Shown: positions 11,632 through 37,379 of the stretch, one piece after another
Layout of the letters: the number at the start of each line of letters is the position of its first letter
How positions within the stretch are numbered: position 1 is the stretch's first letter
Assembly (NCBI RefSeq): GCF_021729155.1
Contig: NZ_JAJQYA010000036.1
Coordinates: 1-52,706, forward strand
Direction of reading: 5' to 3'
Origin: Membranihabitans marinus
Lineage (GTDB): Bacteria > Bacteroidota > Bacteroidia > Chitinophagales > Saprospiraceae
DNA: 52,706 nucleotides
The notes under the pieces: generated by a model
Told to the model about the DNA's origin: nothing
Seen by the model: only the letters and a program-made list of their open reading frames with translations
Database searches by the model: none
Translations under genes and position numbers: made by a program

Positions 11632-13875
11632 TTAAAAGGCATTATCCATTAGATATTCGCAATTGATTACTTTTTCAATTAAATCTTGTGGCAAATAGTA
11701 ATACTGATTGGTGGCTTCAAATCCTATCCTAGAATCCTTAGAACTTACCTCATACAATTCTTTTGCCAATTGGATTTCCGATTGTAAAATAGCTAATATT
11801 TTATGATCTCCTTCACTATTCCCGCCATCTGCCATCTGATCTCTGAGTTCAACATATTTTATTTGATTAACCACCGATGCAAAATGCAAATAACAAGCTT
11901 TGGCAATACCAAAATCCTTTAAAGCCGTTTCGCGCTTCGATGGATCGATGTTGTTTAATAATGCTTCAAACGAAACCAAACCCTTGGCCCACTCCTTGGC
12001 CAATTTATTAAATTGATCGTAAAACACCTCTCTTGGATAAGGACCACGCCAACCATCCAAATCATCATATGGAAAGCAAACCATAGTAGAATTATATCCT
12101 GTAGGTTTCGAATACAATAAATTAGCAGGACCATATTGTTGAGGCGCTCTGTACATCACACTCCCATTGTAAGGAAACTCCTTAAATGCATTGCTAAAAT
12201 GCGACCATGCCGTCCGAGCATATTCAACATTTTCACTACCATATCGTTCTGCAGCGATATCGTTTAATACCTTTTCTACCGAAGAATTAGGATTCTTCGA
12301 ATAGTGATTGGCTATCTCTAAATTCGGTGAGGGATAACCACCCAAAGACCAACTCAACATATAACCATCCACCCCTGATGTAGCCAAATTTGACGCGTGT
12401 TCAGCAACCAAATCCAAGACCGGCAACCAAGGAACTGAGGACAATTCCCAGGTATTATTAAACTGCACCTTGGCCACTGTCTTCAACCCATTTTTTTGGG
12501 CTTCTGCCCAATGCATCTTGGCTCTGGGACCAGGCCCAACGGCTGAAATAGAATATTCGCCAACATTACTTTTTACATTGCCTCTATTTAGTGGCAAAGC
12601 CCATTCACTTACCGACATAAACCAAACATCTTCTGGTAATTTTTTTATAATTTCTCGCCCATCCCCATGACCATTCCAGCCCCAATCCCAGGCTATCACC
12701 TTGGCATCTGGATTACCAGCATGCACTCCTTCAGCAATGGTTTTATTCACACCAGCAATCACACTTGAATACCCTATTTTACTGCATCTCACACATTGAT
12801 TATGCAAGTTATGAGAAGCACAATTTGTTATATTTTCAGAAGCCGTTATTGTGAATACCCCTCCCAATCCTTTTACTTCTGTAAACACATGTTTTAAGGA
12901 CGATCTTAACCACTGTTTCACTTCTTCTGTACTAGTACACATGGTGGCTACATCACCTCTAATGGCGCCTTGAATATCTTTTCTATTTTCAAAAAAGGCC
13001 AATGGCATAGCACGGGGCTCATTCATATAGAGATATACTTTAATGCCGTATTTCTTTGCTCGCTCTACTATTTTAGCGAGTTCTTGCAATCGCTTTTCGC
13101 TGCCTTTTCCAAATTCAGGAAAATTGGGATTAGGCGGACTCAGTTGACTCAACACCACATGCAACCAAACTCCATTGACACCTTGCTCCGCTAATTGAGA
13201 CAACAATCCTTCTGGATAGGGATTAACCTCAGGGTGTAATAATGGATCTCCAAATGCTCCGAAATAAGAATAAACATATCGAAGTCCTGCATCATTACTT
13301 GTCGATTGATAGGGCTTGACTACTTCTAAATCATTTATAAACCCGTATCGCACTTCTTCTATCTCTTTGGTATTTGAAAAGTGTTCTTTCACCCATTTTT
13401 TGATTTGTCTCGCTTTTTTCTTTTCCATCTTATTAGGGCTATGGTATTCCAATGGACTACAGCTAGGCTTTAACGATCCCAATTTAATATATAAAAAATC
13501 ATCCTCCTTTAGCGCAAATGCCAACTCTTCGGCATTCATTTCCAACAATACCATCAACTGTTCATATGGCAATAAATGCCAATTTCGTCTAATAATAGAT
13601 ATATACAATTGTTTACTATCTAAATGAGCCCATTGAGTACTTGGCTCCAACCCCATAGATCTGGCGACAGAGATTATCTCTTGGGCAGAACAACCAATGA
13701 CTTCCCCTAGCTTTTCTGGGCTAACCAGATTCCAATTGCGCCAAACAAAAGTGTGCATTCTACTCGGGAAGTGCTCAATGGATATAGGCTCAGGAGCACT
13801 TCCTACCGGTAGTATTTCTTGAGAATAACTTATGTTGAATATTAAAAAAAGAAAAGGGATGATGATGCCTTTCAT
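11632..13875 (-). CDS. Secreted predicted TIM-barrel glycosidase with tandem N-terminal helical repeats
   Basis: This 747-residue protein has a signal peptide at residues 1-18 or 19. Residues of about 44-76 and 96-128 are two copies of a roughly 33-residue helical unit (RNWNLVSPEKLGEVIG / RNWHLLPYEQLMVLLE). From about 190 there is a long domain with a TIM-barrel look: RYVYSYFGAFGDPLLHP, a beta-strand GVNGVWLHV, YGIKVYLYMNEPRAMP, GGVFTITASEN with Glu347 as a candidate catalytic acid, and AKVIAWDWGWNGHG. A Cys cluster (352, 361, 364; NCASHNLHNQCVRC) follows Glu347 and could bind metal or form disulphides. I cannot assign a CAZy family; GH20-like or an unclassified clan member is possible. It follows rhaT by 31 bases and is the last gene of the PUL-like operon, though its sampled GC content is somewhat higher than that of its upstream neighbours. 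Confidence 0.68.
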   Translation of the reverse strand: MKGIIIPFLFLIFNISYSQEILPVGSAPEPISIEHFPSRMHTFVWRNWNLVSPEKLGEVIGCSAQEIISVARSMGLEPSTQWAHLDSKQLYISIIRRNWHLLPYEQLMVLLEMNAEELAFALKEDDFLYIKLGSLKPSCSPLEYHSPNKMEKKKARQIKKWVKEHFSNTKEIEEVRYGFINDLEVVKPYQSTSNDAGLRYVYSYFGAFGDPLLHPEVNPYPEGLLSQLAEQGVNGVWLHVVLSQLSPPNPNFPEFGKGSEKRLQELAKIVERAKKYGIKVYLYMNEPRAMPLAFFENRKDIQGAIRGDVATMCTSTEEVKQWLRSSLKHVFTEVKGLGGVFTITASENITNCASHNLHNQCVRCSKIGYSSVIAGVNKTIAEGVHAGNPDAKVIAWDWGWNGHGDGREIIKKLPEDVWFMSVSEWALPLNRGNVKSNVGEYSISAVGPGPRAKMHWAEAQKNGLKTVAKVQFNNTWELSSVPWLPVLDLVAEHASNLATSGVDGYMLSWSLGGYPSPNLEIANHYSKNPNSSVEKVLNDIAAERYGSENVEYARTAWSHFSNAFKEFPYNGSVMYRAPQQYGPANLLYSKPTGYNSTMVCFPYDDLDGWRGPYPREVFYDQFNKLAKEWAKGLVSFEALLNNIDPSKRETALKDFGIAKACYLHFASVVNQIKYVELRDQMADGGNSEGDHKILAILQSEIQLAKELYEVSSKDSRIGFEATNQYYYLPQDLIEKVINCEYLMDNAF

Positions 13876-13906
13876 GAAATTAATTTTTATTATTTAAAAC
13901 TTAAGG

Positions 13907-14947
13907 TTAAAGACCAGCTCGATGATTTCCTAATCCAATAAGTAATAGAGATACTATCAATAAAAGAATTCCTATCCATAAATACCTTTTGGTAAGCCTA
14001 TCTACATCAGCCCACTCTTTTAACCAAATACCCCATACATTACTAAATATTACAATAGACGACATATGAATACTCCAACTGGCAAAATCATATTCCCCCA
14101 TTTTGGTAGCTCCCATTCCATAAAAAAAGAATTGCAAATACCACATAATGCCACTGAACATAGCCAATATATAATTCCGTCTTAAGAGTTTATTATCCTT
14201 AAGTACATAATCAGAAAATGATTTATTCCTAAATCCTTTCACTATACTATAAATGAAATTAGTTACAAAACCACCTGCAAATGCGATTACGAAAATCGGA
14301 ATATTCTTATAAATTAAAGCCGTTCCACTATTCAAAGCAGATTCTGCTATTTCATCACCATACATAATTGCCAAAGCCATACTCGCACTGAGAATACCCC
14401 CCAGAACAGCCATCAGAACTCCTTTATAAATTGCAAATTCTGAGGTAGTTTTAATTGACTTTTTATTTAATTGAACATCTTTACGCTTACCTGCAAATCC
14501 GCATAAAACAATGCCACCTATACTAAATAAAAAACCTAATAAAATTATATTTCCGGAGGAAGTAGTAAATATCATTACCAGTTTATCATTGATTATCGCA
14601 GGTACTATAGTACCAACAATTGAGGAAACACCCAATGAAATAGATTGTCCCAAGGACAAGCCCAGAAATCGTAGTCCCAAACCTGAGAAAAGGCCTCCAA
14701 ATCCCCACAATAATCCAAAAAAGAATGTAAGTAAAATACTATTATTAGAGGTCGAACTAAAAATTTGAAATACGTTATCAGTAACTAACCAACAACCTAC
14801 AATAGGCATGACAATCCATGCGACAAAGCCTAATACTATCCAATAAGTCTCCCATGCCCACTTTTTAATTTTATAAGTAGGAACATAAAAACTAGCAGAA
14901 GAAAAGCCCCCTATTGAATGGAGCAATATCCCAATTAATTGTTCCAT
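13907..14947 (-). CDS. rhaT: L-rhamnose-proton symporter RhaT family permease
   Basis: This 346-residue inner-membrane protein has about ten hydrophobic segments. It resembles E. coli RhaT along its length: an N-terminal HSIGGFSSASFYVPTYKIKKWAWET block, GLLWGFGGLFSGLGLRFLGLSLGQSI, and the C-terminal GIMWYLQFFFYGMGATKMGEYDFASWSIHMS with KEW after it. RhaT imports L-rhamnose (and L-lyxose) with a proton. Its ATG directly follows the TAG of the upstream gene with no spacer, so the two are probably translationally coupled. Together with rhaM one gene further upstream it marks the operon as handling L-rhamnose or a related 6-deoxyhexose. The catabolic enzymes RhaA, RhaB and RhaD are not in the window. 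Confidence 0.92.
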   Translation of the reverse strand: MEQLIGILLHSIGGFSSASFYVPTYKIKKWAWETYWIVLGFVAWIVMPIVGCWLVTDNVFQIFSSTSNNSILLTFFFGLLWGFGGLFSGLGLRFLGLSLGQSISLGVSSIVGTIVPAIINDKLVMIFTTSSGNIILLGFLFSIGGIVLCGFAGKRKDVQLNKKSIKTTSEFAIYKGVLMAVLGGILSASMALAIMYGDEIAESALNSGTALIYKNIPIFVIAFAGGFVTNFIYSIVKGFRNKSFSDYVLKDNKLLRRNYILAMFSGIMWYLQFFFYGMGATKMGEYDFASWSIHMSSIVIFSNVWGIWLKEWADVDRLTKRYLWIGILLLIVSLLLIGLGNHRAGL

Positions 14948-15901
14948 CTAATCTTTTTTAATTTTTTCAAACTCGGTGATAACCGTTACTCCAATTTCGA
15001 TATTTGAATCAATATTTTTTGGACACCCACCTACAGCTTCCAATTCCATAAATCCTGTGCTATCATTATATATACTATATCTGACTCCTTTGCTATTTGG
15101 CTTAATTTTAGGTGACACATCACTTATATCAATATAATCTTGGTCTTTAGCTATTGGATCAGCTATCCGCCTAATACGCATATTATTTGAATAGTCTAAA
15201 AATTGAATCCAAGCAATTTCTCCCCCAAGTCCAATTTGGAATCGATTTAATCCATCCGTATCTATATGATATAATCCATCTTTAAACTTTATCTCTTTCA
15301 ATCCAGATTCTGCATACATATCCCAAATCAATTCTCTATTCTTTCCAGGGAAAACTACTTTATTCCCCACATCGGAATTAAATTGACTTAATGTCCATGG
15401 TGCTATCAAACAATTATCGTGAGAATGACTAGAAACGCCTACATACGTTATACTTTCTTCTACTTTAACTATATGAATATTTCCATTTTTGTTAATTGAT
15501 ATATTCCTTTTAAATATAGTGGGTAGGCCAAGGCCTTGATTATTTACTAAATCTAATTCCGCAATAATATTTGCACTATATTTAGAATGGTGTTTAACGA
15601 CATATCTAGCATTTCTAACAGATACTGGCACCGACCATTCTCCTGTATTATAGTGATATCCTAAACTTGTACCTTCAGGAGCTGGCCACAATCCATCTCC
15701 CCCTGGATTAATATATTTCTCACGAGTACTTTTTCCAAAAATGGCTTCTTCATTTACTCTATTGATTACAACTCCATCTATAATTGTATAAAGTCTACCT
15801 TCAAGATCCAAAGCTACTAAAACACCAAAGTTTAGATCACCAATTAAATGAATACTTCTACCTGCCTTTTCAAAAGCTTTAATAACCAACTCTGCTTTCA
15901 T
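14948..15901 (-). CDS. Uncharacterised protein, DUF4380/aldose-epimerase-like
   Basis: This 317-residue protein has no signal peptide. It is rich in beta-strands, with PGGDGLWPAPEGTSLGYHY at about residues 67-85, a GGDxxWPAP-type motif that I associate with DUF4380 and other galactose-mutarotase-fold proteins. Later come ITYVGVSSHSHDN and an NSKGVRYSIYNDSTGFMELEA segment typical of the same fold. It sits between rhaM and rhaT with gaps of 11 and 0 bases. A cytosolic mutarotase-like or sugar-binding role on the imported deoxysugar is a reasonable inference. Family assignment is from memory of motifs and is tentative. Confidence 0.5.
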   Translation of the reverse strand: MKAELVIKAFEKAGRSIHLIGDLNFGVLVALDLEGRLYTIIDGVVINRVNEEAIFGKSTREKYINPGGDGLWPAPEGTSLGYHYNTGEWSVPVSVRNARYVVKHHSKYSANIIAELDLVNNQGLGLPTIFKRNISINKNGNIHIVKVEESITYVGVSSHSHDNCLIAPWTLSQFNSDVGNKVVFPGKNRELIWDMYAESGLKEIKFKDGLYHIDTDGLNRFQIGLGGEIAWIQFLDYSNNMRIRRIADPIAKDQDYIDISDVSPKIKPNSKGVRYSIYNDSTGFMELEAVGGCPKNIDSNIEIGVTVITEFEKIKKD

Positions 15902-15912
15902 AATTTATCTAC

Positions 15913-16230
15913 TTAATCTAAATGAAATATTTCAATCAATGGTATTTCCTTGGCCTTAATACTGTTCTCATCTTCACTTACTAAGACTTCTTTCATATAC
16001 TTCCACCAATTTTGTAAAATCTGACTATCTTCTATTGTTTCAAAAAGCTTTTCATTTTCTATCTCAAAATACCCAAAAAGCAAATTTGAATCAGTCTGAC
16101 AAAAAATAGAATAATTAGTTATTCCATAATTTTTCAGCTCTATTTTTAATTCATCCCAAATCGGATTATGCCTCTTAATATACTCCTCTTTTTGCCCTGC
16201 TTTAGCTTTTATGACAAATGCCTTTCTCAT
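15913..16230 (-). CDS. rhaM: L-rhamnose mutarotase
   Basis: This 105-residue protein has the usual RhaM length. It carries RHNPIW at residues 20-25 with His21, the position of the proposed catalytic histidine, then YSIF and LLFGYFEIE. The WWKYM motif near residues 75-79 and the C-terminal EIFHLD complete the family pattern. RhaM interconverts alpha- and beta-L-rhamnose anomers in the cytoplasm, which helps the next enzyme use the imported sugar. It is 16 bases from the deacetylase gene upstream and 11 from the DUF4380-like gene downstream. This is the clearest substrate clue in the operon. Confidence 0.93.
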   Translation of the reverse strand: MRKAFVIKAKAGQKEEYIKRHNPIWDELKIELKNYGITNYSIFCQTDSNLLFGYFEIENEKLFETIEDSQILQNWWKYMKEVLVSEDENSIKAKEIPLIEIFHLD

Positions 16231-16246
16231 TATATATTCATCTTAC

Positions 16247-17137
16247 TCAATTATCAAACTTCTCAGCTAATGCATCAGCTCGTATAAACTTGCCCCCAGC
16301 TTTAATTAATAGATCACATAAAATGTCAAACTCTTCAATAGCTTTTTGGCCACAATTCTCAACAATAAAATCCAATGGTTTAACTGAACATTCCCCAAAA
16401 TCCATAGCTCCTTGAGGCATTTGATAAAACTCCCACGGATGGAAATAAAAACACAAAACTGGTCTTTCTCCTTTTCCGTTTACAAAATCAATAAAACCAG
16501 ATACCTTTTCCATTAAGACGGTAGCAGATTGAGTTCTAAACAAAGGCCATTGATCACGATCCCGTTGGTATGGATCGCTACTATTCATAGTTAGATCGCA
16601 AAAGTTAGGTATTTCCAAAATTTTCATATTTCCCTTTTTTGTCCAATCTTCTGAAGATGGATGATAGGGAGTAAAAGGTTTTCCATAAAAATAAAGCGGT
16701 AATGAAGCATCAGAAGTATATCCTAATTTTTCTAGCACATTTACAACCTTTGTACTGCCCCATAATCGTGGACATCTAAAGCCAATTGGTCTATGTCCAA
16801 CTATTTTTTCAATTATATCGGTCGCAATGGTTAATCTACCTTCAACTTCAGATTCCAAGATTGGCCAATTATTAGGAAGTGGAAAAATCGGATCTCCTAA
16901 AGTTTCGTGAAAGAGACCATGACAACCGGTCTCATGACCCGCATGATGAACTTCTAGTACTTTTTCTGGATTCTTTTCTGCAGCATGTCCTGTCCAATAG
17001 AATGTTGCTAATATATTGTGCTTTTCTAGTACGTTCAATATTTCTTGCGTACCATATTCTACCCCTGAATAATATGGTGTATATGATCCTACATCTGTTT
17101 CCATATCAAAACCAAGAACGACATCAAAATCTTTCAT
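16247..17137 (-). CDS. Polysaccharide deacetylase (NodB homology) family protein
   Basis: This protein has 296 residues from the ATG at 17137 (MKDFDVVLGFDMETD). ATGs at 17155 and 17173 would add 6 or 12 residues and overlap the upstream stop codon; 17155 is also possible, since an 8-base overlap suits coupling. NodB motifs are visible: FDMETD (motif 1 acids, with the second Asp replaced by Glu-Thr-Asp spacing as in the PuuE-like group), HGLFH (metal His pair), GFRCPRLWG (motif 3) and FYFHPWEF (motif 5 His). There is no signal peptide, so it should act in the cytoplasm. A deacetylase or cyclic-amide hydrolase acting on an imported sugar or amino-sugar fragment is possible. The next gene encodes RhaM. 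Confidence 0.85.
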   Translation of the reverse strand: MKDFDVVLGFDMETDVGSYTPYYSGVEYGTQEILNVLEKHNILATFYWTGHAAEKNPEKVLEVHHAGHETGCHGLFHETLGDPIFPLPNNWPILESEVEGRLTIATDIIEKIVGHRPIGFRCPRLWGSTKVVNVLEKLGYTSDASLPLYFYGKPFTPYHPSSEDWTKKGNMKILEIPNFCDLTMNSSDPYQRDRDQWPLFRTQSATVLMEKVSGFIDFVNGKGERPVLCFYFHPWEFYQMPQGAMDFGECSVKPLDFIVENCGQKAIEEFDILCDLLIKAGGKFIRADALAEKFDN

Positions 17138-17147
17138 TTCTATTTTA

Positions 17148-18320
17148 TTATTCATATTCACAAAACAATTCATCCATGTGTGGACTTAAAGGAATTGCAC
17201 CATTTTTTGTAATTTCATAACCAGACTCTATCCTTACACCATGCCACTCTGGATGTCCAAAAAAACTAATGTCAATGCATATCATCATTCCTTCTTTTAA
17301 TTCATCCTCACTATTGGGTCCAAAAAATGGTGATTCCGCTTCATGTAAACCAATGGTATGAATAAATGGGCATACTAAATATTTCGACAAACCTTGTTCC
17401 TCAAAATAAGCACGAACCGGAGCATCCATTTCTTTGCCTATTTTACCTGGGATAAGTTGATCTTTTGCTATTCTGAAAGCTTTTTTAAGAATTTCTATAC
17501 ATTTTTTCTGGCTTTTTGAATATTCTCCATTGACAGGTAATGTATCACCAACTACACCAGCATATCCATTTACTTTAGGTGAAATACCTATCATTACCAT
17601 TTCTCCTTCTTCCAATTCCTTGTTACTTGCCGTTGGAACTACTGCATTCGATCGAATTCCACTCCCAACAATAGTTGAAAAACCAAATCCATTGGCACCA
17701 TTAAAACGGACTGCATATTCTCCAGCTGCAGCCACTTTTATCTCTGTTGTATTAAGACCGATACTAGTCTTCATTGCTAAATAAGCCTTATCTGCCAACT
17801 TAAAAGCTTTGCGTATATTTTGTTTTTCCCATTCAGATTTTATGAATCTTAATTCAACAAAATCCTGAGTAATGTCTACCAAAGCAACACCTTCAAAGCC
17901 CTCTAAAATTTGATGATAACAATCTGCAGGCATTCGGCCTCCTCCTACCAATCCAATATTCTTTAATTCAATATTTATAGATTTTAACTCTAAAAATAAT
18001 TGAGGAAAATCAATAATAGTTGCATTCGGATATTCTTCATCAGGAACCATAAAGACTGGAAAATTTCTTGTTTCCTTTATGGCACTCTCCAATTTCGCAA
18101 AAGGTTCACTTTCTGGGCCCCCTAATATAAATGGATTCCCATCACGCGGAACTAAAACAGCACCACTTTCAAATTGTGGACAATAACCGGTCAAATACCA
18201 GCCATTTCCTATATTAAATTCATCAAAATATACTATTGCTGCATCTAGATTTTTCGATTTTAAAATATCTTTCACTTTAGCAACTCGAATTGCACTTTCT
18301 TCCTTACTTAAATATGACAT
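17148..18320 (-). CDS. M24-fold (creatinase/aminopeptidase P-like) protein with degenerate metal site
   Basis: This 390-residue protein has an N-terminal creatinase-type domain (about 10-150, with YLTGYCPQFESGAVLVPRDG) and a C-terminal pita-bread domain (about 165-380, FGFSTIVGSGIRSN to GVRIESGYEITKNG). True M24 metallopeptidases need Asp, Asp, His, Glu, Glu. By alignment of conserved neighbours I read these as Gly245, Val256, His321, Asp350 and Glu365, so both aspartates are missing. Creatinase itself uses this fold without metal, so a metal-free hydrolase of a small C-N or similar bond is more likely than a peptidase. There is no signal peptide. It is 6 bases from the large lipoprotein gene upstream and close to the deacetylase downstream. 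M24-like genes are unusual in a rhamnose PUL. Confidence 0.78.
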   Translation of the reverse strand: MSYLSKEESAIRVAKVKDILKSKNLDAAIVYFDEFNIGNGWYLTGYCPQFESGAVLVPRDGNPFILGGPESEPFAKLESAIKETRNFPVFMVPDEEYPNATIIDFPQLFLELKSINIELKNIGLVGGGRMPADCYHQILEGFEGVALVDITQDFVELRFIKSEWEKQNIRKAFKLADKAYLAMKTSIGLNTTEIKVAAAGEYAVRFNGANGFGFSTIVGSGIRSNAVVPTASNKELEEGEMVMIGISPKVNGYAGVVGDTLPVNGEYSKSQKKCIEILKKAFRIAKDQLIPGKIGKEMDAPVRAYFEEQGLSKYLVCPFIHTIGLHEAESPFFGPNSEDELKEGMMICIDISFFGHPEWHGVRIESGYEITKNGAIPLSPHMDELFCEYE

Positions 18321-18326
18321 ATTTAT

Positions 18327-21260
18327 TTATTTATAATTAATAATTGGATCATCTTGACTAATAATTGTCACTTGAGACCTAGGGTTGATACCAGAATTAT
18401 TCTCTACTAAAAAATTTATTTTATTTGATCCGAACATTAAATTAGGAATAGATCCAATAGGTTTCACTTGACTTATTAATCTTCCTGTTTTGTCAAATAA
18501 TTTACAATCATCTTCCGCATAAAATTCTAGGTACATACCTGATTCCATTTCAACAGGAAAAATTATTTTAGATCCATTCACCTCTATTGAAGGATTGTTT
18601 ATCGTATTTTCTACGAGTGGGATGGCTTTTATAGGGCCTATTAGATTTTTAATATTCTTTCCGCTTGGCAAATTATTATACCAAAATTGAAGTTTATTTA
18701 CATTACTAAAACTAATTCGATGCCGATAGGAATCATAGACGTAGAATCTTGAATCATCTGGCCACATATAATCACTTATTCTTGAAGATTCTATCTCTAC
18801 TAATTCAAAATATTTCCAACCCTTAAAATCAATTTTAATAAAATGATCTCCATGTGCTCCATGTGAAATATGAATTGGACTTCTAAGACTTATATTTAGA
18901 ATTTCACCATTGCCATCTCCATTTATCCATACTCCTAATCCCTTATTATCAATAATATTCAAAATAGGATCAAATTCCTTCTCCATGTTTATATAAGAAC
19001 CATCCACCGGTGCACTACCATCACTATAAGCCGAATAAATAATTGCATCCTCTTCATTGAGTGTTTTTTCAGAATTTACTTCTATTGACGCAGAGACTCC
19101 TGATGCATAATCGCCTAATAGAAATTCAGTTGATTTAGAATAATCTGTTAATACCACATTTGATGGAGAATCATATGAATCAACTGACATTAAAACTTCA
19201 ATTCTTAATTTTATGGGTTGTGTAGGCATAGAATTCATTACTTCCCAACTTGAGGAAGGATGATTATCACCCTCCACCTTATGCTTTAGATATTTAGTAG
19301 GTTTAAAATTCCATTCTCCACGATCACTTTTAAACAAACTATACTCTTTACCTGGTTGGCGAAGTAAAGTTTTTACTTCATCACTAAAATAATCTTGATG
19401 CCTTAATGCCTCGTATTGTTTCATTATATCGGCACTTTGTTTAAAAAGAGGAAACTGAGCTAAAGTAATACTATCAACACCTCCTAATTGAGAGAAACCA
19501 GCATTATTACCAATCATTTTACATCCTAAATATTCAATATCATCTGAAAATGTTGGTTCTATTTGAGGCGGACTCCAAACTTGGTTCCCCCACCAACCAA
19601 GGTGCAATGGAAGTTGAATCTGCCCATTTAGTATCCCTGCATATTTATCAATTTCCGGACTATGTCCTTTCCAACGTCCATGTTCCCACTCATTAGAAAT
19701 TATATCCTCTGGAAGAAACAAAGCGGATGCTTTTATTGAAGCCAGATGAATATCAATAAATCTTTTATAACCCCGAACTGGGCGATCCCAAGCTTGCCAT
19801 CGAGATCGATAATGCCACCAATGATGTGACATTGAACTCATTTCCATTCCAACTGGTCTATCTAATTTATTAGCTACTTCAAAAAGAAACTTTGTTCCAT
19901 AGTACCAAAAATTTTCATCTCCACCTAAAACGGCACTTCCATCAATCGCATCAAAATAAATACCTTCAAAATTACATTCATTAACAATTTTAGCGTGTTT
20001 TTCAGCAACGGTAGTAAACAGTTTGGTATCTGGACCCGGCACGAATAAATTAAACCTTTCACTTAAGTGATAAGCATTTTTATTCAAATCATGCGAAGAA
20101 ATTTCCGTGCCACATGCACCTCTTTTTAATCCTGTAAATTTATAAGGTGGATTTTTTGAAACTCCACTAAATTCTACTAATTCCTTTCCAATTCTTAGTG
20201 TAACACTATTCTCCGTATGAAAACCTGTGATTGTAGAAATATCTTTTGTCGATTCATTGACAAACAATTCTTTATCATCTTTCTCCAATGGTTTACTTAA
20301 AGTAAAAATTTGTTCAAATCCTAAATCCTCACTCGGCACAGGAGTCACATATTCGGATCCTTTATCAATAAAAAAAGCATATGTATGAAAAATATGCGAT
20401 ATTCCAGCTTTCTTCAATTTTTCATTAATGCGTTTAAAGGAAGCCCATCCATCGGGCCATTTATCCTTATTTAATTCTAAAGTACCAAATTCAAAAAAAG
20501 AGCCACCTCCATGACTATCAATTTGATTAAAACCTAGTGAATGACATTTTTCTATCCATTCGTCAACAGTATCTTCTGTTAAGGAACCAAAATTCATAAG
20601 ATATGAACCATATCCTTCATCATTCAACAATGCCCATGCACCTCCAGCATTAGAAAATGGAATATCTTTGGCGTTTTCAATGATATCTCGTATGGTTCCT
20701 AAAATTTTTATTTGTGGTAATCCAATTAAAGTCACTTCAGCACCTTTTATCCCAAACTTATTATAGCATTTAGCACTTAATTCTGTTTGAGTGGGAGGTA
20801 ATTGTCTTACATGTGTGTATAAATTCATTGACAACGCACATGCCCCAAATGGTTCATATGGTTGCCCCTGTACTGTTAGAGGAATATTTAAAAAGGTTAA
20901 ATTATCAATATTCCCCTCTACGGTATCCACACTAAATATAATCCGATCGAAATGGTTAATTACTTTAATCCTAGCATTGATATTTACATTTTCAAATTTC
21001 ATAACAATGAAATCATTCTTATATGTAACAGAAGTCACTTCATGAGAAACGCCGTCAACCTCTACAATACCACATTTAGAATTTTCTAATAAATCCAAGT
21101 AGTTAATGCCTGTTGATTTTTCAATAAAATGAACATTTTCACCATTTGAACTAATTTTATAGCTGAAAAAATCATTTTCAAGAACAACATAAGGATTCAT
21201 AGATACACAACCTATCGTCAGAAATAACAATACAATACTTCCAATTGAAAAATGATTCAT
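18327..21260 (-). CDS. Large surface lipoprotein with predicted TIM-barrel glycosidase domain
   Basis: This 977-residue protein has signal residues 5-17 and lipobox TIGC with Cys18. Residues of about 22-190 form a beta-rich N-terminal domain (like the super-sandwich of GH27/31/36-type enzymes). From about 200 to 550 a TIM barrel is suggested by GAWALLNDEGYGSYLMNFG, KWPDGWASFKRINEKLKKAG, and FEGIYFDAIDGSAVLGG, with Asp437 as candidate nucleophile or metal ligand, followed by GMEMSS with Glu473. A beta-rich insertion (about 315-400, RIGKELVEFSGV and LKRGACGTE) interrupts the barrel. The remaining 400 residues look like beta-sandwich modules. No CAZy family could be assigned. It directly follows susD (42 bases), the usual place for the surface endo-acting enzyme of a PUL. 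Confidence 0.7.
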   Translation of the reverse strand: MNHFSIGSIVLLFLTIGCVSMNPYVVLENDFFSYKISSNGENVHFIEKSTGINYLDLLENSKCGIVEVDGVSHEVTSVTYKNDFIVMKFENVNINARIKVINHFDRIIFSVDTVEGNIDNLTFLNIPLTVQGQPYEPFGACALSMNLYTHVRQLPPTQTELSAKCYNKFGIKGAEVTLIGLPQIKILGTIRDIIENAKDIPFSNAGGAWALLNDEGYGSYLMNFGSLTEDTVDEWIEKCHSLGFNQIDSHGGGSFFEFGTLELNKDKWPDGWASFKRINEKLKKAGISHIFHTYAFFIDKGSEYVTPVPSEDLGFEQIFTLSKPLEKDDKELFVNESTKDISTITGFHTENSVTLRIGKELVEFSGVSKNPPYKFTGLKRGACGTEISSHDLNKNAYHLSERFNLFVPGPDTKLFTTVAEKHAKIVNECNFEGIYFDAIDGSAVLGGDENFWYYGTKFLFEVANKLDRPVGMEMSSMSHHWWHYRSRWQAWDRPVRGYKRFIDIHLASIKASALFLPEDIISNEWEHGRWKGHSPEIDKYAGILNGQIQLPLHLGWWGNQVWSPPQIEPTFSDDIEYLGCKMIGNNAGFSQLGGVDSITLAQFPLFKQSADIMKQYEALRHQDYFSDEVKTLLRQPGKEYSLFKSDRGEWNFKPTKYLKHKVEGDNHPSSSWEVMNSMPTQPIKLRIEVLMSVDSYDSPSNVVLTDYSKSTEFLLGDYASGVSASIEVNSEKTLNEEDAIIYSAYSDGSAPVDGSYINMEKEFDPILNIIDNKGLGVWINGDGNGEILNISLRSPIHISHGAHGDHFIKIDFKGWKYFELVEIESSRISDYMWPDDSRFYVYDSYRHRISFSNVNKLQFWYNNLPSGKNIKNLIGPIKAIPLVENTINNPSIEVNGSKIIFPVEMESGMYLEFYAEDDCKLFDKTGRLISQVKPIGSIPNLMFGSNKINFLVENNSGINPRSQVTIISQDDPIINYK

Positions 21261-21302
21261 TGAACTAAAAATTAAATAATCTGATTAATAAAATACGTAG
21301 TA

Positions 21303-22841
21303 TTAATAACCCGGATTTTGAATAATGTCTACATTAATTTGAGTCTCTCGAAAAGGGATCGGATAAACTAACCGATACTCTTTAATGTCAAATGCATTTT
21401 GTGGTAAAAAACTATTTTCTTCTTTCATCCGATTTCCATAAGCTGTCATAACTTCAATTGCCTTACCTGTTCTAATTAAATCAGTCATTCTGTGATTTTC
21501 AAAAGCCAATTCATGACGCCTTTCTTTTAAAACATCTCCTAAACTTACAGATGTTAAATTTGACAATCCTGCTCGATCTCGTACTTTATTTATATACTGG
21601 AGAGATTCATTATTTTTTCCCTGCTCAACTAAACATTCAGATAACAATAACAATACATCAGAATATCTAAAAACTGGCCAATTCTCACCTGTATTATTCG
21701 GTAAACTATATGGACCGTGAACAAATTTTGCTACAAACGGGAAATATACTTTATCCGGATCTTCGTCATATTCCCCGATCTCTAATATATTCAAATAGAT
21801 AACTGGATCAGAATAAGGATCTCCTCCATTTAAAGTACCTTCTATTATTTTAACAGAACTTTTTAATCTTAAATCCCCATCTTCATAAGACTCAATTAAT
21901 CCCAAATTAGGGACATTCCAACCACCAGCTGTTACATTATTTGCACTAACCCCAGTCAATAGTTTAGTATCTGAGGTTTTTGGTAACATTGAATATATAA
22001 AGTTACTCTGCTGACCATCATTTCCTTCTTTATACTGTATTTCAAAAATAGATTCCGAGTTGTTTTTATTTTGCGGATCAAAACAATCTGCATAATTGTC
22101 TAACAACGAATAGTTCATATTCACTATATCAAGTAATTGCTTTTCCGCCTTATCGTATTCTCTATTTGGTTTAGACATAAAAGTTTTACCCAATAGCATT
22201 TTTGCTGCACCTTTTGTTGCACGCCCAGACTGAGGAAATACAGTAACCGTTGGTAGTAAAGGAATTGCCTTCTCTAAATCAACAATAATCTGATTATAAA
22301 CAGCTGATTCATCTGACCTAGTAATATAAGCACCAGCTTCATCCAAAACATCTTCAAGATATAGAGGAACGCCTCCATAATGAGTAACTAAATCAAAATA
22401 GTAAAAAGCTCTTAAAAATAGAGCTTCGCCAAGTACCCTATCTTTAGCTTCATTTGAAATATCAGCATCATTTACTTTTGCAATAATTGTATTTACCCTT
22501 GAAATCCCACTATAATTATTATAGTATCTAGTATTCACTATTGTCGTCTGAGATTGATCTATCCATTCTATGATATCCTCAACCCAATTAGCGGGTCCTC
22601 TATCAGGTGCATAATATCTAAAAAATGTATTATCAGAACGCATTTCATCCATATAGAGCCCCGGCACCACGATACCTCGTAATTGCTGATAAGCACCTAC
22701 TAATGCTAAGTCAAAGTGAGATTCAGTTTTAAAAAAATTGGGTGTGGTCAAATTTGTTTCTGGAGATAATTTTAAAAAATCCTCACTACATGATGTAAAA
22801 AAGAAAATTCCAAAGATTATATATAAGATTAATTGTTTCAT
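21303..22841 (-). CDS. SusD/RagB-family glycan-binding lipoprotein
   Basis: This 512-residue surface lipoprotein has lipobox FTSC with Cys18 and the family signature SEDFLKLSPETNLTTPNFFKTESHFDLALVGAYQQLR at the N-terminus (residues 19 onward). A TPR-like alpha-helical core follows. Near the C-terminus comes the VRDRAGLSNLTSVSLGDVLKERRHELAFENHRMTDLIRTG block, typical of RagB/SusD. It caps the SusC porin and delivers oligosaccharides. It lies 11 bases after susC, the invariant order in polysaccharide utilisation loci. The bound glycan cannot be read from the sequence, but the operon suggests a rhamnose-containing one. Confidence 0.95.
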   Translation of the reverse strand: MKQLILYIIFGIFFFTSCSEDFLKLSPETNLTTPNFFKTESHFDLALVGAYQQLRGIVVPGLYMDEMRSDNTFFRYYAPDRGPANWVEDIIEWIDQSQTTIVNTRYYNNYSGISRVNTIIAKVNDADISNEAKDRVLGEALFLRAFYYFDLVTHYGGVPLYLEDVLDEAGAYITRSDESAVYNQIIVDLEKAIPLLPTVTVFPQSGRATKGAAKMLLGKTFMSKPNREYDKAEKQLLDIVNMNYSLLDNYADCFDPQNKNNSESIFEIQYKEGNDGQQSNFIYSMLPKTSDTKLLTGVSANNVTAGGWNVPNLGLIESYEDGDLRLKSSVKIIEGTLNGGDPYSDPVIYLNILEIGEYDEDPDKVYFPFVAKFVHGPYSLPNNTGENWPVFRYSDVLLLLSECLVEQGKNNESLQYINKVRDRAGLSNLTSVSLGDVLKERRHELAFENHRMTDLIRTGKAIEVMTAYGNRMKEENSFLPQNAFDIKEYRLVYPIPFRETQINVDIIQNPGY

Positions 22842-22852
22842 GTTTAATAATT

Positions 22853-25800
22853 TTAAAAATTAAAATCTGCTCCAACAGTAAATACTCTTGGAACTGGATA
22901 ATGTGCGAAATCACGTCCTTCATTTAAACCATTTAATCCACTTTCTCCAGCTTCGGGGTTCATACCAGGATAATTGGTTAACATAAATGTGTTTTGTGAA
23001 CTTATATAAACTCGTCCCCCTTTAACAACTTTCCCTGAAGAGATAGGAAGTTTGTAACTTAAAGTAATATTTCGAGCAGCTAAATACGATCCATCGAAAA
23101 TTAAACGACTATTATTAAATCTATGAAGAGGATTAGAATTTGTTCTTGGAATATTCCCAGCACCTGGATTGTCAACCGATCGCCATCGATCTACTACTTC
23201 AGGACTAACATTAAATACTCCATCAATATTCTCCGTCCATAGCAATTCACCCATAAATAGATCACCTCCAACTCTTCCAACCAAATGAATATCTAAATCA
23301 AAGTTTCTGTATGTAAAATGATTAGTTAAACCAAATATAAAATCGGGATTTGGATCACCAATAAATGTTTTGTCATCTACTGGATCAATAAAACCATCTG
23401 GGATATTGTCAGGTCCACTTAAATCTTTAATTCTTACTGAACCAACATCAGACCCTCCATAAGCTTTAATATGTGGACCTTGATCTAATTCTGCTTGATT
23501 CATAAAAACACCATCGTAAACATAGCCATAAAATTGTCCAATAGGATGTCCAACTTCGGTTCTAACAAAATCAACATTTTCACGATATCCACCAATTGGT
23601 GTATTTTCTGTACCTAGCTTATTAACTATATTTCGATCAAGAGAAAAAGTTATATTGGAACTCCAACTAAACTTACCGACTAAATTCTTAGTTTCTAAGC
23701 TGACTTCATGTCCCCAAAATTCAAATTCACCAATGTTTGATTGAATATTTCCAAAACCCGATGCAAGTGGGATATCTACACCATACAACAATCCATTTGT
23801 TCTCTTCCAGTAATAATCATATAATATAAAAACTCTATCATCAAATAAACCAATATCCAACCCTATATCTGTTTGAACGGTAGTTTCCCAAGTTAAATCA
23901 GCATTTCCTAAATTTGTCTTAGTTTTACCTGCAACTAAAGAATTGTTAAAAACATAATTTGCATTCCCAATGGAACTAAGATGTGAATAATTTCCTATAT
24001 TATAATTTCCTACCTCTCCATAACTTGCTCTTACTTTTAAAAAGCTTAGAACATTGCTATATTTATTTAAGAAATTCTCCTTTGACACCACCCAACCAAC
24101 TGACAATGAAGGAAATATGCCATATTTCTTATTTTCACCAAATCTAGAAGAACCATCTCTTCGAACAGCCATTGATAAAAAATATTTCTCGCTATAATTA
24201 TAATTTAGTCTTCCAAAATTTGACAAAATAGAATATTCTGATGTAGAGACATTTCCTCTAATCACTGAGGCTCCGGTTACCCAAGATATTTCATCATCAG
24301 GAAAGTCAGAACCAGTAAGTGAACTCGACTCATTTCTAACTTTTTGGGCAGCATATCCAAGTAATGCCTGAAAATTATGATCTTCATTAATCGAGAGATT
24401 ATAATTCAATGTATTTTCAATTTGCCAATTCTTGTAATTTGAAGAATTATAACTACCTGCAGGAGGATTAGGAGGTGCAACAAACATACTACCCTGAGCA
24501 GTTGAAGGACTCCAATACCTATTTTCAGAATTACCTATATCTGCATCAGCTTTTAATTTATAACTAAGCCCTTTTAAAATTTCATATTCTCCAAAAGCAT
24601 TTACCAATATATTCTTTCTTGCTAAAGGATTTTCCCTTTCTGTTAACACTCTATACCAGTTAGGATTAGGAAACATACCTGGTGATGAAAAAGAAATTGG
24701 ATATGTGCCGTCTTCATTTTTGTACTCAAGTGTTGGATCCATAATATATCCAGCTGACAAAATACTCCAGGTCCCATCGGTATTTAAATTTTGAGAATTT
24801 CGAAGATTGGCAGATAAATTCAAACCAAAAACCAACTTATCAGAAACCTTAAATAAATTATTAGCTCTTGCAGTTATCCTCTCAGAAAATGTATTTAACA
24901 TGACTCCATCTTGCTTATTATAACTTGCATTGATAGAAGACTGAATACTCTCTGTACCCGTCGATAGGGAAAAATTATAATTTTGCAATAGAGCATTGGG
25001 ATTTAAAAAAATATCAAACCAATCAGTACCATCGTTTGGACCATATTGACTTGGGTTTTTATACCTTTCAGGCACTTCCATTCCTTGATCAGAATACCAC
25101 TCATTTTTAAACTGAGCAAACTGTTGTGCATTCATAACATTTGGCCTACCTCTTTGCGGTACGTTTTGCAAACCACTATAAACACTAAATCTAATATCCG
25201 TTTTACCTACTTTTGCCTGTTTAGTTGTTACCAAAATAACACCATTTGCCGCTCTTGAACCATATAGAGAAGAAGCCGAAGCATCTTTTAATACTGAAAT
25301 TGACTCAATTTCATCTGGATTAATTGCCTCTAGACCAATACTTGAGGGGAATCCATCAATTACAATTAATGGTGAATTCCCTGCATTAATTGAAGCTTGT
25401 CCTCTTATTCTGACTGAAAACCCTTCTCCAGGTGTACCTGTTGATTGATTGATTCTAATTCCTGATAATTTACCTTGTAATTTTTGACCGAGCTGAGTCA
25501 TTGGCATATTTTCTAAATCCTGAGCATCTACAGAACTTATAGCCCCTGTAATACTACTCTTTCTCTGTGTGCCATACCCCACTACTACAACTTGATCTAA
25601 TGTCTGCGAATCCTCTTGTAAGATTATTGTTATATTAGACTTACCTGCAATTGAAGTTTCCTTCGATTGATATCCAATATAAGAAAAAACCAATACCGCA
25701 TTTTCATTGACATTTTGTAAGCTAAAATTTCCATTGAAATCAGTAGCTGTTCCATTATTAGTCCCCTTGACCAGGACATTGACTCCAATAAGGGGCTCTC

Positions 25801-26287
25801 CTGATTGATCAACTACTTGCCCCTCTACAATAAGTTCCATTCTTTTCAAGGTAAGGGGGATAGATTTATCAGACAATTTTTCAATTAACTTTACTCTTCT
25901 AGTTATCTTGGCATTTTCACCATCGCTGATTAAATCATCAATATGATGGGCCATTTTCTTTAGGGACTCTAATCCTTCGGCATCGTTTTTATAAATGATC
26001 ACAAAACGCTGATCATAAAACTTATACGCCAACTCTGTTCCCTTTAATATCCTAGAAATGGCTTCATCTGCTGAATTATGCCCATCCTTTGTGTAATTAA
26101 CTTTAATGTCAGAGACCAAGGTCATATCAAAAGTAAAATAGACATCATACTTCTTGCTAATCTCCTCAATGGCTTCTAATAATGTAATTTCCTGACTGAA
26201 AGCCTTAGGTGCATGTGCCCGAACAGGAACATAGATGACCATGGCTAATATGACCCACAGGCCATTTAGTGTTAGAATTCTTTTCAT
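22853..26287 (-). CDS. SusC/RagA TonB-linked outer-membrane transporter with STN domain
   Basis: This 1144-residue protein has a signal peptide at about 1-25. A secretin/TonB short N-terminal (STN) domain spans about 35-92 (ITLLEAIEEISKKYDVYF). A carboxypeptidase-D regulatory beta-domain spans about 148-225 (VEGQVVDQSGEPLIGVNV). The plug follows (VVVVGYGTQRKSSITGAISS, then LSGIRI and SISVLKDASASSLYGSRAANGVI), and the barrel ends in the aromatic RVFTVGADFNF. The STN domain is the part that contacts a FecR-type anti-sigma factor, so substrate transport can be signalled to the divergent ECF sigma gene. It lies 25 bases after fecR and 11 before susD. Length and architecture are normal for signalling SusC proteins. 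Confidence 0.95.
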   Translation of the reverse strand: MKRILTLNGLWVILAMVIYVPVRAHAPKAFSQEITLLEAIEEISKKYDVYFTFDMTLVSDIKVNYTKDGHNSADEAISRILKGTELAYKFYDQRFVIIYKNDAEGLESLKKMAHHIDDLISDGENAKITRRVKLIEKLSDKSIPLTLKRMELIVEGQVVDQSGEPLIGVNVLVKGTNNGTATDFNGNFSLQNVNENAVLVFSYIGYQSKETSIAGKSNITIILQEDSQTLDQVVVVGYGTQRKSSITGAISSVDAQDLENMPMTQLGQKLQGKLSGIRINQSTGTPGEGFSVRIRGQASINAGNSPLIVIDGFPSSIGLEAINPDEIESISVLKDASASSLYGSRAANGVILVTTKQAKVGKTDIRFSVYSGLQNVPQRGRPNVMNAQQFAQFKNEWYSDQGMEVPERYKNPSQYGPNDGTDWFDIFLNPNALLQNYNFSLSTGTESIQSSINASYNKQDGVMLNTFSERITARANNLFKVSDKLVFGLNLSANLRNSQNLNTDGTWSILSAGYIMDPTLEYKNEDGTYPISFSSPGMFPNPNWYRVLTERENPLARKNILVNAFGEYEILKGLSYKLKADADIGNSENRYWSPSTAQGSMFVAPPNPPAGSYNSSNYKNWQIENTLNYNLSINEDHNFQALLGYAAQKVRNESSSLTGSDFPDDEISWVTGASVIRGNVSTSEYSILSNFGRLNYNYSEKYFLSMAVRRDGSSRFGENKKYGIFPSLSVGWVVSKENFLNKYSNVLSFLKVRASYGEVGNYNIGNYSHLSSIGNANYVFNNSLVAGKTKTNLGNADLTWETTVQTDIGLDIGLFDDRVFILYDYYWKRTNGLLYGVDIPLASGFGNIQSNIGEFEFWGHEVSLETKNLVGKFSWSSNITFSLDRNIVNKLGTENTPIGGYRENVDFVRTEVGHPIGQFYGYVYDGVFMNQAELDQGPHIKAYGGSDVGSVRIKDLSGPDNIPDGFIDPVDDKTFIGDPNPDFIFGLTNHFTYRNFDLDIHLVGRVGGDLFMGELLWTENIDGVFNVSPEVVDRWRSVDNPGAGNIPRTNSNPLHRFNNSRLIFDGSYLAARNITLSYKLPISSGKVVKGGRVYISSQNTFMLTNYPGMNPEAGESGLNGLNEGRDFAHYPVPRVFTVGADFNF

Positions 26288-26312
26288 TTTAAAATTTTTT
26301 TTTGAACTTATT

Positions 26313-27251
26313 CTATTCGCTTTTTACACTGTACTTCCCTTCTGATTCAACAAATTGTACATTTAAGGACATTTCCAATGCTTGTTTCACGGCATCCCAA
26401 TCGGCATAGGGAACTCCTAAATACATTGGCGTATCCAATAGTTTTGTATCCTCACAAACCAATGTCTTTCCATAAATTTCTTCCAGTTTAATCAGAACCT
26501 CACGGAAGGTCATTGCTTTGAAGTTTAACACTCCATTCTTCCACGATGCCGCAGAAGTCATGGTTTCATTTAAGGTTTTTTTCACTGCCTTTTCTTCTGC
26601 CTTATAGATAATTTTTTCTCCAGGCGCCATGGAGTAAATCGTATCTTTTTCTGCTGCTAATTGCAATTGAACTTTCCCCTCTTCTAAATATACTTCAGTT
26701 GATAATACGCGGCTGTCTACATTAAATGACGTACCCAATACCTGAATGGATAGATCTTTGGTTTGAACAAAAAAGGATTGATCTTCATCCAAATGCTGAA
26801 CATCAAAAAAGGCTTCCCCCTCCAATTGAATATTCCTTACCCCTTTGCCTTTCCAAAGGTTGTCCCATTCTATTTTGGAATTGGCATTGAGACTCACTGA
26901 ACTACCATCAGGCAATGCAATATCTAATGTCTCTCCGAATCCAGTTTGATAACTCAAAGTATCCGGATCTGTATTCTTAAACATAAATATCACAGACAAA
27001 AATCCTACAACTATCAAAACACCGGCGGCCAAAGACCACTTCTCAACCCTACCCAAAGCTAGCTTGCGAGATAAACCACTATTCTGTTTTTCGAAGTGCA
27101 TAGGATCAGGCCAATAATGATTTAATTCATTGGCCAAAGATTGTAATTCTTTATCCTTATTTAACAATTCCAATAATTCATCATACTCTGATCGTGTAAG
27201 ACGATTGGATTGATATTTATCTAATAATTCTCTATTTCGCTTTTGACTCAC
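26313..27251 (-). CDS. FecR-family anti-sigma factor
   Basis: This 312-residue protein has a cytoplasmic N-terminal sigma-binding segment (1-70, with YQSNRLTRSEYDELLELL). One membrane helix lies at about 72-91, followed by a periplasmic FecR domain (GFGETLDIALPDGSSVSLNANSKIEW at about 104-129). A C-terminal DUF4974 region comes at about 240-312 (LNFKAMTFREVLIKLEEIYGK), which binds the STN domain of the partner transporter. It is divergent from the ECF sigma gene and immediately precedes susC, the standard order for trans-envelope-regulated PULs. It should hold the sigma factor inactive until the SusC complex binds its glycan. Confidence 0.94.
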   Translation of the reverse strand: MSQKRNRELLDKYQSNRLTRSEYDELLELLNKDKELQSLANELNHYWPDPMHFEKQNSGLSRKLALGRVEKWSLAAGVLIVVGFLSVIFMFKNTDPDTLSYQTGFGETLDIALPDGSSVSLNANSKIEWDNLWKGKGVRNIQLEGEAFFDVQHLDEDQSFFVQTKDLSIQVLGTSFNVDSRVLSTEVYLEEGKVQLQLAAEKDTIYSMAPGEKIIYKAEEKAVKKTLNETMTSAASWKNGVLNFKAMTFREVLIKLEEIYGKTLVCEDTKLLDTPMYLGVPYADWDAVKQALEMSLNVQFVESEGKYSVKSE

Positions 27252-27626
27252 TTAATTTCTTTTTATAAACAAACAAATCTATCATTATTCATTCCTTCTA
27301 AATTTCATTTTAAACAATCATTGTACTATCAAATCTATCTACTTAACTCTGAATTTTGATTATTAGACCAGTCGAAATACAATTTTTTTAAAAAAATCTT
27401 CCAAACCATGTTAAAATCAATAAACACATCTTATATACAACATTATATTCTAATGCAAGCACTCAAATAATTAAGATCCTTGAACATTTTCACTAATTAA
27501 CAGACTATTTGAATTGTTATTTCTTTATTAAATATTTTTTATATAGTTTTAAAGCGCTATTAATCATTCAAACTTTCATTGTGTGAATTATCAAATCTAA
27601 ATATTAAATGAACCAGTTAATGTTTG
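27252..27626. promoter_or_regulatory. Divergent control region between fecR and the ECF sigma gene
   Basis: 375 AT-rich bases must carry promoters in both directions. CAAATCTA occurs three times (27274-27281, 27330-27337, 27592-27599). On the minus strand this reads TAGATTTG, matching the Bacteroidota -7 consensus TAnnTTTG. The first two are suitably placed 23 and 79 bases upstream of fecR. I did not find a TTTG -33 element at the right distance for any of them, so the promoter call is weak. No plus-strand promoter for the sigma gene is obvious. Confidence 0.35.
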
Positions 27627-28148
27627 ATGATGAATAAGAATATAGCTTCCTTTAGAATAAAAATTTACCAGTTTATTCTAAAATTTGTCAAAAACCCTGC
27701 CCTAGCAGATGATTTGACCCAAGATGTGATGCTTAAAATTTGGCTTAGACGTGAAAAATTATCCCACTTAGAAGAAATCGAAGCCTATGTCATGCGTATG
27801 TCTAAAAACCACGTCATGGATCACTTTAAGAAATTGGCCAAAGAAAAACAATACCAAGAGGAAATCTGGGGCCGCATGCAAAAATCCGAAAACCTAGTCA
27901 TTACTCCCCTCTTTACCAAAGAAATGGAATCACAACTAGATGCTATTCTCAAAGAACTCCCCCCCCGACAACAAGAGATCTACAATCTCAATAAAAAGGA
28001 AGGTCTCAGCCTACAAGAAATAGCGGATCGACTCGACATCGCACCCAATACGGCAAAAAATCATCTTACTCGTGCTCTAAAAGTGATTCGCAATCAGATG
28101 AACCCTGAGTCTATTTACCTTATCTTAGCAGTCCTATTACAACTGTAA
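27627..28148 (+). CDS. ECF RNA polymerase sigma factor (FecI-type), short N-terminus
   Basis: This protein has 173 residues from the ATG at 27627. A TTG at 27624 is in frame but unlikely, and a TAA at 27618-27620 blocks any further extension. Sigma region 2 is clear: FRIKIYQFILKFVKNPALADDLTQDVMLKIW, with the usual DLTQDV core. Region 4 is a helix-turn-helix (LPPRQQEIYNLNKKEGLSLQEIADRL to KNHLTRALKVIR). The roughly 15-20 residues that normally precede FRIKIY in ECF factors are absent, so the first part of region 2 is shortened. It is divergent from fecR and presumably activates the fecR-susC-susD operon when released. Confidence 0.9.
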   Translation: MMNKNIASFRIKIYQFILKFVKNPALADDLTQDVMLKIWLRREKLSHLEEIEAYVMRMSKNHVMDHFKKLAKEKQYQEEIWGRMQKSENLVITPLFTKEMESQLDAILKELPPRQQEIYNLNKKEGLSLQEIADRLDIAPNTAKNHLTRALKVIRNQMNPESIYLILAVLLQL

Positions 28149-37374: not shown

Positions 37375-37379
37375 AGCTG

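Follow-up and report, generated by a model that had tools for sequence, protein, structure and literature searches.

A conserved SusC/SusD operon of Membranihabitans marinus joins a candidate new glycosidase to rhamnose-type sugar transport

Results

A conserved operon with a rhamnose-type transporter

We analyzed a 52,706-nucleotide contig of the Bacteroidota bacterium Membranihabitans marinus (NZ_JAJQYA010000036.1; G000:C29 in our collection; hereafter the window), and in particular an operon on its minus strand, from position 11632 to 27251. This operon is real and is conserved in several distant relatives. We give an even chance to the reading that it is a polysaccharide utilization locus (PUL) for a glycan or glycoside containing L-rhamnose or a close relative. 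A protein of 977 residues, named here P977, would act as an exo-alpha-glycosidase freeing the terminal sugar, which would then be taken up by RhaT and processed in the cytosol. Judged from the genes present, a rhamnose-type sugar is the best reading of the substrate. The operon and the divergent gene preceding it are as follows.

27624..28148, plus strand: extracytoplasmic function (ECF) sigma factor, divergent from the FecR gene (Pfam Sigma70_r2/r4_2)
26313..27251, minus strand: FecR anti-sigma factor (PF04773, 67.9 bits)
22853..26287, minus strand: SusC-type TonB-dependent transporter (TIGR04056, 861 bits)
21303..22841, minus strand: SusD-type surface glycan-binding protein (PF07980, 134 bits)
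18327..21260, minus strand: P977 (977 residues), putative lipoprotein alpha-glycosidase (fold models, Foldseek, invariant D437/E473/E576)
17148..18320, minus strand: protein of the M24 (pita-bread) fold with a seemingly degraded metal site (PF00557, 120.8 bits; alignment with 1pv9)
16247..17173, minus strand: NodB/CE4-type deacylase (PF01522, 64.1 bits; HxxxH and RxP in alignment)
15913..16230, minus strand: RhaM-type mutarotase (TIGR02625, above cut-off)
14948..15901, minus strand: DUF6786 protein, likely sugar-active (PF20583, 38.5 bits for a cut-off of 27)
13907..14947, minus strand: RhaT-type sugar/proton symporter (PF06379, 209 bits; sole PF06379 match in the genome)
11632..13875, minus strand: P747 (747 residues), secreted protein outside the conserved block (GH67M at E 0.038 only; signal peptide by eye)

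The ten minus-strand open reading frames look like one transcription unit, since by their coordinates the gaps between them do not exceed 42 bp and are followed by 330 bp between P747 and the next gene. From FecR to SusC the gap is 25 bp, then 11 to SusD, 42 to P977 and 6 to M24. M24 and NodB overlap by 26 bp, and the following gaps are 16 bp to RhaM, 11 to DUF6786, 0 to RhaT and 31 to P747. A SusC/SusD pair, linked sugar-related genes and a regulator are thus all present, as in a PUL. An earlier note on this DNA had named the FecR-SusC-SusD head and the RhaM, RhaT, NodB-type and M24-fold genes, with which coordinates, strand and Pfam/NCBIfam profiles agree; its "DUF4380-like" protein belongs instead to DUF6786.

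Using P977 alone as query, we retrieved 16 loci besides the window from a genome collection, and scored their gene content by tblastn. The block P977-M24-NodB-RhaM-DUF6786-RhaT was complete, in the same order and each time following SusC-SusD, in four of them: L002 (Tannerella), L003 (Mariniphaga), L006 (Chitinophagaceae) and L011 (Dyadobacter). Such retention of gene order, among loci found with P977 alone, places the arrangement beyond chance. L003 and L006 each have two P977 copies. In L004, SusC-SusD-P977 is followed by an M24 gene inside which the sequence stops, and L063, from the same genome, holds RhaM-RhaT with no DUF6786 between them; apparently, these are one block split across two contigs. 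L014 contains P977-M24 and lacks NodB, RhaM, DUF6786 and RhaT. The ECF gene precedes FecR on the same strand in L002, L004 and L006, versus divergent in the window.

Another context of P977 involves GH78, which like GH106 is a glycoside hydrolase (GH) family of alpha-L-rhamnosidases. In 3 of the 16 loci P977 has a GH78 gene just upstream of it, adjacent in L007 and L016, and separated by one BD-FAE-type esterase gene in L012 (calls by Pfam for L007 and L012, and by BLAST for L016, at 69% identity to the L012 protein). These three clusters also encode an unannotated 890-residue family (5 members), and L012 and L016 a 609-residue family; for each, the one member scanned had no Pfam match. Genes resembling URO-D/MtaA-type methyltransferases are found close to P977 in L003 (17507-22136), L012 (12946-13962) and L016 (17530-18546), and may have to do with methylated sugars. 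In a Sphingobacterium metagenome-assembled genome, M19 dipeptidase and D-serine dehydratase-like genes adjoin P977 (L009:4810-7005).

P977 is a candidate for a new glycosidase family

No Pfam or NCBIfam family matched P977 above its cut-off, CBM_11 giving a weak signal (E 0.0048). Identity with GH78 or GH106 was rejected, as neither Pfam profile matched. By eye, the N-terminus carries a lipobox-like signal (LTIGC); beyond it the models place an N-terminal beta-sandwich, a TIM barrel and a CBM11-like C-terminal region. The full-length model was poor (pLDDT 70, pTM 0.45): with it, Foldseek placed GH101 on top (E about 1e-12) at TM-scores near 0.15 (0.13-0.17), and matched CBM11 at TMt 0.66. A trimmed model (residues 24-640, 18-row alignment), restricted to the beta-sandwich and barrel, was better (pTM 0.76). 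Among its 1423 PDB matches, counted at E 10 or less, 48 of the best 50 had titles of GH36/GH101/GH129/GH31 type, at E from 1e-11 to 4e-8, the family numbers of several of these titles being our own assignment; the other two (8a1a, 8a19) are host-lattice constructs with no glycosidase in the title. Matches include the galactosaminidase 9awt (E about 1e-11) and the GH129-like anhydrogalactosidase DagB, 11% identical in the structural alignment. At the sequence level, the P977 profile gave against the PDB a faint match to galactosaminidases (E 0.007 over about 50 columns) and nothing strong, and GH101 was absent from the Pfam matches of P977 and of 18 further proteins scanned.

D437, E473 and E576 are invariant in 16/16 rows of the P977 alignment, and D437 and E576 are kept in 18/18 rows of the wider family alignment. 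D437 and E473 are 36 residues apart, to be compared with 32 for D764 and E796 of GH101 (numbers from the titles of 5a58/5a59), which we take to be its catalytic residues. D437 is the likely nucleophile and E473, with less certainty, the candidate acid/base. On the basis of the models, P977 is a good candidate for a glycosidase of the GH36/GH101/GH129/GH31 structural superfamily, of that fold type at modest TM-scores. It is also a good candidate for a new glycosidase family, outside Pfam-A and NCBIfam.

In an even draw of 395 genomes of the phylum, 14 gave a match to the P977 profile at E ≤0.001. The best match besides P977 itself (1716 bits) reached 161 bits and is a member of the wider family, for which 14 loci were inspected; at 11 of them the protein measures 768-846 residues. 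Members of this wider family (L026-L039) have the P977 barrel and the invariant Asp in common, and all 12 scanned were without a Pfam glycoside hydrolase at E 0.05. In the P977 tree, a branch of weak support (82/87) separates the RhaT-linked from the GH78-linked members, the RhaT-linked side also including members from other loci. On viral contigs, 43 pattern matches for P977 relatives were found, none of which was confirmed.

P747 is an accessory protein

P747 was rejected as a core enzyme. It is missing from all four complete related operons and was found in 2 of the 395 phylum genomes, its own and one where it adjoins AcrB and OEP efflux genes. Its Pfam result was limited to GH67M (E 0.038, 13.5 bits for a cut-off of 23.5), and the sequence search of the PDB gave no useful match. 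It is therefore accessory, and not a member of the conserved block. The earlier note had described P977 and P747 as two large glycosidase-like proteins, a pair degrading a rhamnose-containing glycan by enzymes of undescribed families. The rhamnose-linked PUL stands, as does P977, by its fold and its place outside Pfam-A and NCBIfam; P747 drops out.

Rhamnose genes in the host genome

The RhaM of the window passes its family cut-off (TIGR02625, 109.5 bits versus 99.6), and in alignment keeps the Tyr, His and Trp-Trp pattern that we take to be its active-site residues. RhaT is above the Pfam PF06379 cut-off and below those of NCBIfam RhaT (at best 375 versus 468 bits). The host genome (5.4 Mb, 78 contigs, given as 100% complete) has no match to GH78 (PF17389) or GH106 (PF17132), which extends to the whole genome what had been noted for the window. 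It has two GH88-family proteins outside the window.

The parallel claim that RhaA, RhaB and RhaD are lacking holds within the window and fails for the genome, since an aldolase, an isomerase and a kinase are encoded on contig G000:C33, at about 78-83 kb. These are a RhaD aldolase/dehydrogenase (TIGR02632, 948.5 bits for a cut-off of 567.75), a RhaI-type isomerase (TIGR02629, 476.8 bits, under the cut-off of 646.75, yet above that of PF06134) and an FGGY kinase weakly resembling rhamnulokinases (54 bits); arabinose genes come next. Ordinary L-rhamnose catabolism is thus probably encoded there, and the idea of a system without rhamnose catabolism was rejected. Among transporters the search covered the PF06379 family, of which the window RhaT is the only match in the genome and the only member that could bring rhamnose in. 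Among the 16 P977 genomes, RhaT is present in 14, GH78 in 14 and a bifunctional RhaD above cut-off in 6. Among the six operon genomes, that of the window and G398 have no GH78 match.

Weighing the nature of the sugar

In favour of the rhamnose reading count the conserved order of the block, the GH78 gene just upstream of P977 in three other loci, the fold matches of P977 with its constant D437, the lack of GH78 and GH106 in the M. marinus genome, the presence of RhaT here alone with the rha catabolic genes on G000:C33, and the kept active-site pattern of RhaM. Several observations weigh against it. GH78 is present elsewhere in four of the five further operon genomes, so that P977 is not a simple GH78 replacement there. 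Seven of the 16 P977 loci (L001, L005, L008, L009, L010, L013, L015), several of them on short stretches, are without RhaT, RhaM, M24 or GH78 by BLAST. As for P977 itself, the TM-scores of the trimmed model are low (0.27-0.39 by query length), the second half of its barrel is of low confidence (pLDDT below 50 for residues 487-596), and in the 18-row alignment of the wider family E473 is kept in 6 rows, the other 12 having D, G or T. Enzymes of the GH36/GH101/GH129/GH31 superfamily work mostly on D-configured sugars, and to our knowledge none has rhamnose activity.

P977 might instead cut a neighbouring sugar that is not rhamnose, for example of the alpha-galactose type, exposing or following a rhamnose that P747 or an enzyme encoded elsewhere would free. 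The structural kin of P977 are mostly alpha-galactosidases and alpha-N-acetylgalactosaminidases, and its proximity to GH78 in L007, L012 and L016 suggests a division of labour rather than a replacement. We hold this to be somewhat unlikely: the M. marinus genome has neither GH78 nor GH106, the related operons are without P747, and the block common to L002, L003, L006 and L011 contains no second type of glycosidase.

The trees of RhaT and RhaM bear on the rhamnose label itself. In the RhaT tree (29 rows), the six operon RhaTs (window, L002, L003, L006, L011 and L063) form one clade (100/100), apart from nine RhaTs that have RhaI/RhaD, RhaM together with GH78, or a RhaI-like gene beside them and that make up two clades of their own. 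Fourteen rows belong to no group, three long branches were flagged, and several of the neighbours were labelled from BLAST matches at 23-29% identity. The RhaM tree (13 rows, one ungrouped) gives the same split on a 100/100 branch. Two operon genomes have a second RhaT beside rhamnose genes: in G397, which contains L003, L053 has RhaM and GH78, and in G400, which contains L006, L065 has RhaD and RhaI.

These groupings are compatible with an imported sugar that is another L-sugar or deoxysugar, handled by divergent RhaT and RhaM, the rhamnose label then being misleading. One fold match of P977, DagB, is an anhydrogalactosidase. In an agarose PUL, anhydro-L-galactose is proposed to enter through a RhaT-like importer (PMC5849685), so that the RhaT family alone cannot fix the sugar; together with the separate grouping, this weakens the earlier statement that RhaT and RhaM are specific for L-rhamnose-type sugars. 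We nevertheless judge another sugar unlikely, as the window RhaM exceeds the TIGR02625 cut-off with its active-site residues kept, and P977 is near GH78 in other loci. Because operon RhaT and RhaM group apart from the copies beside rhamnose genes, there is a fair chance that what is imported is rhamnose in a modified form.

The M24, NodB and DUF6786 proteins

The metal ligands of M24 metallopeptidases are D, D, H, E and E. At these positions the window protein reads G, V, H, D and E in the alignment with P. furiosus prolidase (1pv9), so that three of five are lost. Across the 6 rows aligned, Asp is never found at the first two places, and Asp replaces the first Glu in all. A 35% relative in L082 (3520-4695) shares the degraded site. 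Loss of most ligands in both proteins hints at a non-peptidase function for M24-fold proteins of RhaT-linked PULs. NodB/CE4 deacetylases have an HxxxH metal motif and an RxP motif; H85/H89 and R133/P135 are kept in the 4 rows aligned (L011 not included), the first motif being an atypical D-M-E. By eye, no signal peptide is visible in the M24 or NodB protein. For DUF6786, the PDB sequence search gave nothing strong, and in the collection of papers searched none contained the name.

A full-length DUF6786 protein (530 bits) adjoins another RhaT in L066 (2869-5193), and the pairing may be wider. L082 (G398:C18) represents a second type of cluster, with ECF, FecR, M24-like, phosphotriesterase-family (PTE), RhaT-like transporter and SusC genes; it also encodes a protein 31% identical to that at 7038-10016 of the window. 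The latter and its counterpart at 34324-37407 are large DUF7133 proteins that carry cytochrome c domains and, in one of the two, a GDSL domain; they flank the operon and stand among Gfo/Idh/MocA oxidoreductases. Families of amide or ester hydrolases come up repeatedly in the vicinity of P977 or of RhaT-like genes (M81/MlrC in L014, PTE in L082, M19 dipeptidase in L009). The background frequency of this theme is uncounted, and we offer it as a lead rather than as a result.

Discussion

In the mechanism that we favour, SusD and SusC would, by homology, bind and import oligomers. Lipoprotein P977, either periplasmic or held at the membrane, would remove the terminal sugar, Asp437 being the likely nucleophile and Glu473 the candidate acid/base. 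The dedicated RhaT would take up the freed sugar and RhaM would interconvert its anomers. Its processing would fall to three proteins, the NodB-type deacylase and those of the M24 fold and of DUF6786, acting in the cytosol, a location suggested by the absence of a visible signal peptide. Such processing suggests an imported sugar bearing an acyl or amide group. If the product is L-rhamnose, it would be passed on to the isomerase, kinase and aldolase of G000:C33.

A more specific version, which we find quite unlikely, is that the sugar is an amide-bearing rhamnose-type sugar, such as an N-acyl or aminoacyl 6-deoxyhexose of a bacterial or glycoprotein glycan. New-family P977 would free it, RhaT would import it still acylated, and NodB and the metal-less M24 would strip it in the cytosol. 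If true, deoxysugars for which phosphorylation at carbon 6 is impossible would here have a route of deacylation in the cytosol.

GH78 enzymes are inverting (PMC12921842). Should P977 free rhamnose with retention, it would differ from them in this; should it not do so, the operon would indicate a sugar resembling rhamnose, so far unrecognised, and a pathway for its catabolism. The six-gene block joins, in distant Bacteroidota, an unassigned glycosidase-fold family, transport of the rhamnose type and a pair of unexplained proteins with hydrolase folds.

Comparison with known systems

The agarose PUL of Bacteroides uniformis NP1 resembles the operon by its SusC/SusD pair, its own RhaT-like importer, its mutarotase and its clustered cytosolic sugar enzymes, and differs by its GH16/GH86/GH117/GH2 enzymes and anhydro-L-galactose pathway; the available part of the report mentions no M24, NodB, RhaM or P977-like protein (PMC5849685). 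GH101 endo-alpha-N-acetylgalactosaminidase and GH36 alpha-galactosidase/galactosaminidase are the best fold matches of P977, with no match at the level of sequence families. DagB, from a carrageenan PUL of Zobellia, shares with P977 the N-terminal beta-sandwich, the TIM barrel and the conserved catalytic Asp; its group is proposed as a new family, having kept only the Asp of the two GH129 catalytic residues (PMC5698469). At 11% identity, DagB has another substrate, and the CBM11-like C-terminal region is proper to P977. Bacterial L-rhamnose utilization regulons also contain RhaT and RhaM, RhaT being reported in rhamnose loci of Bacteroidales, and there RhaT sits with the rha catabolic genes (PMC3870299). 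The window RhaT instead accompanies SusCD, P977, M24, NodB and DUF6786, with the catabolic genes on another contig.

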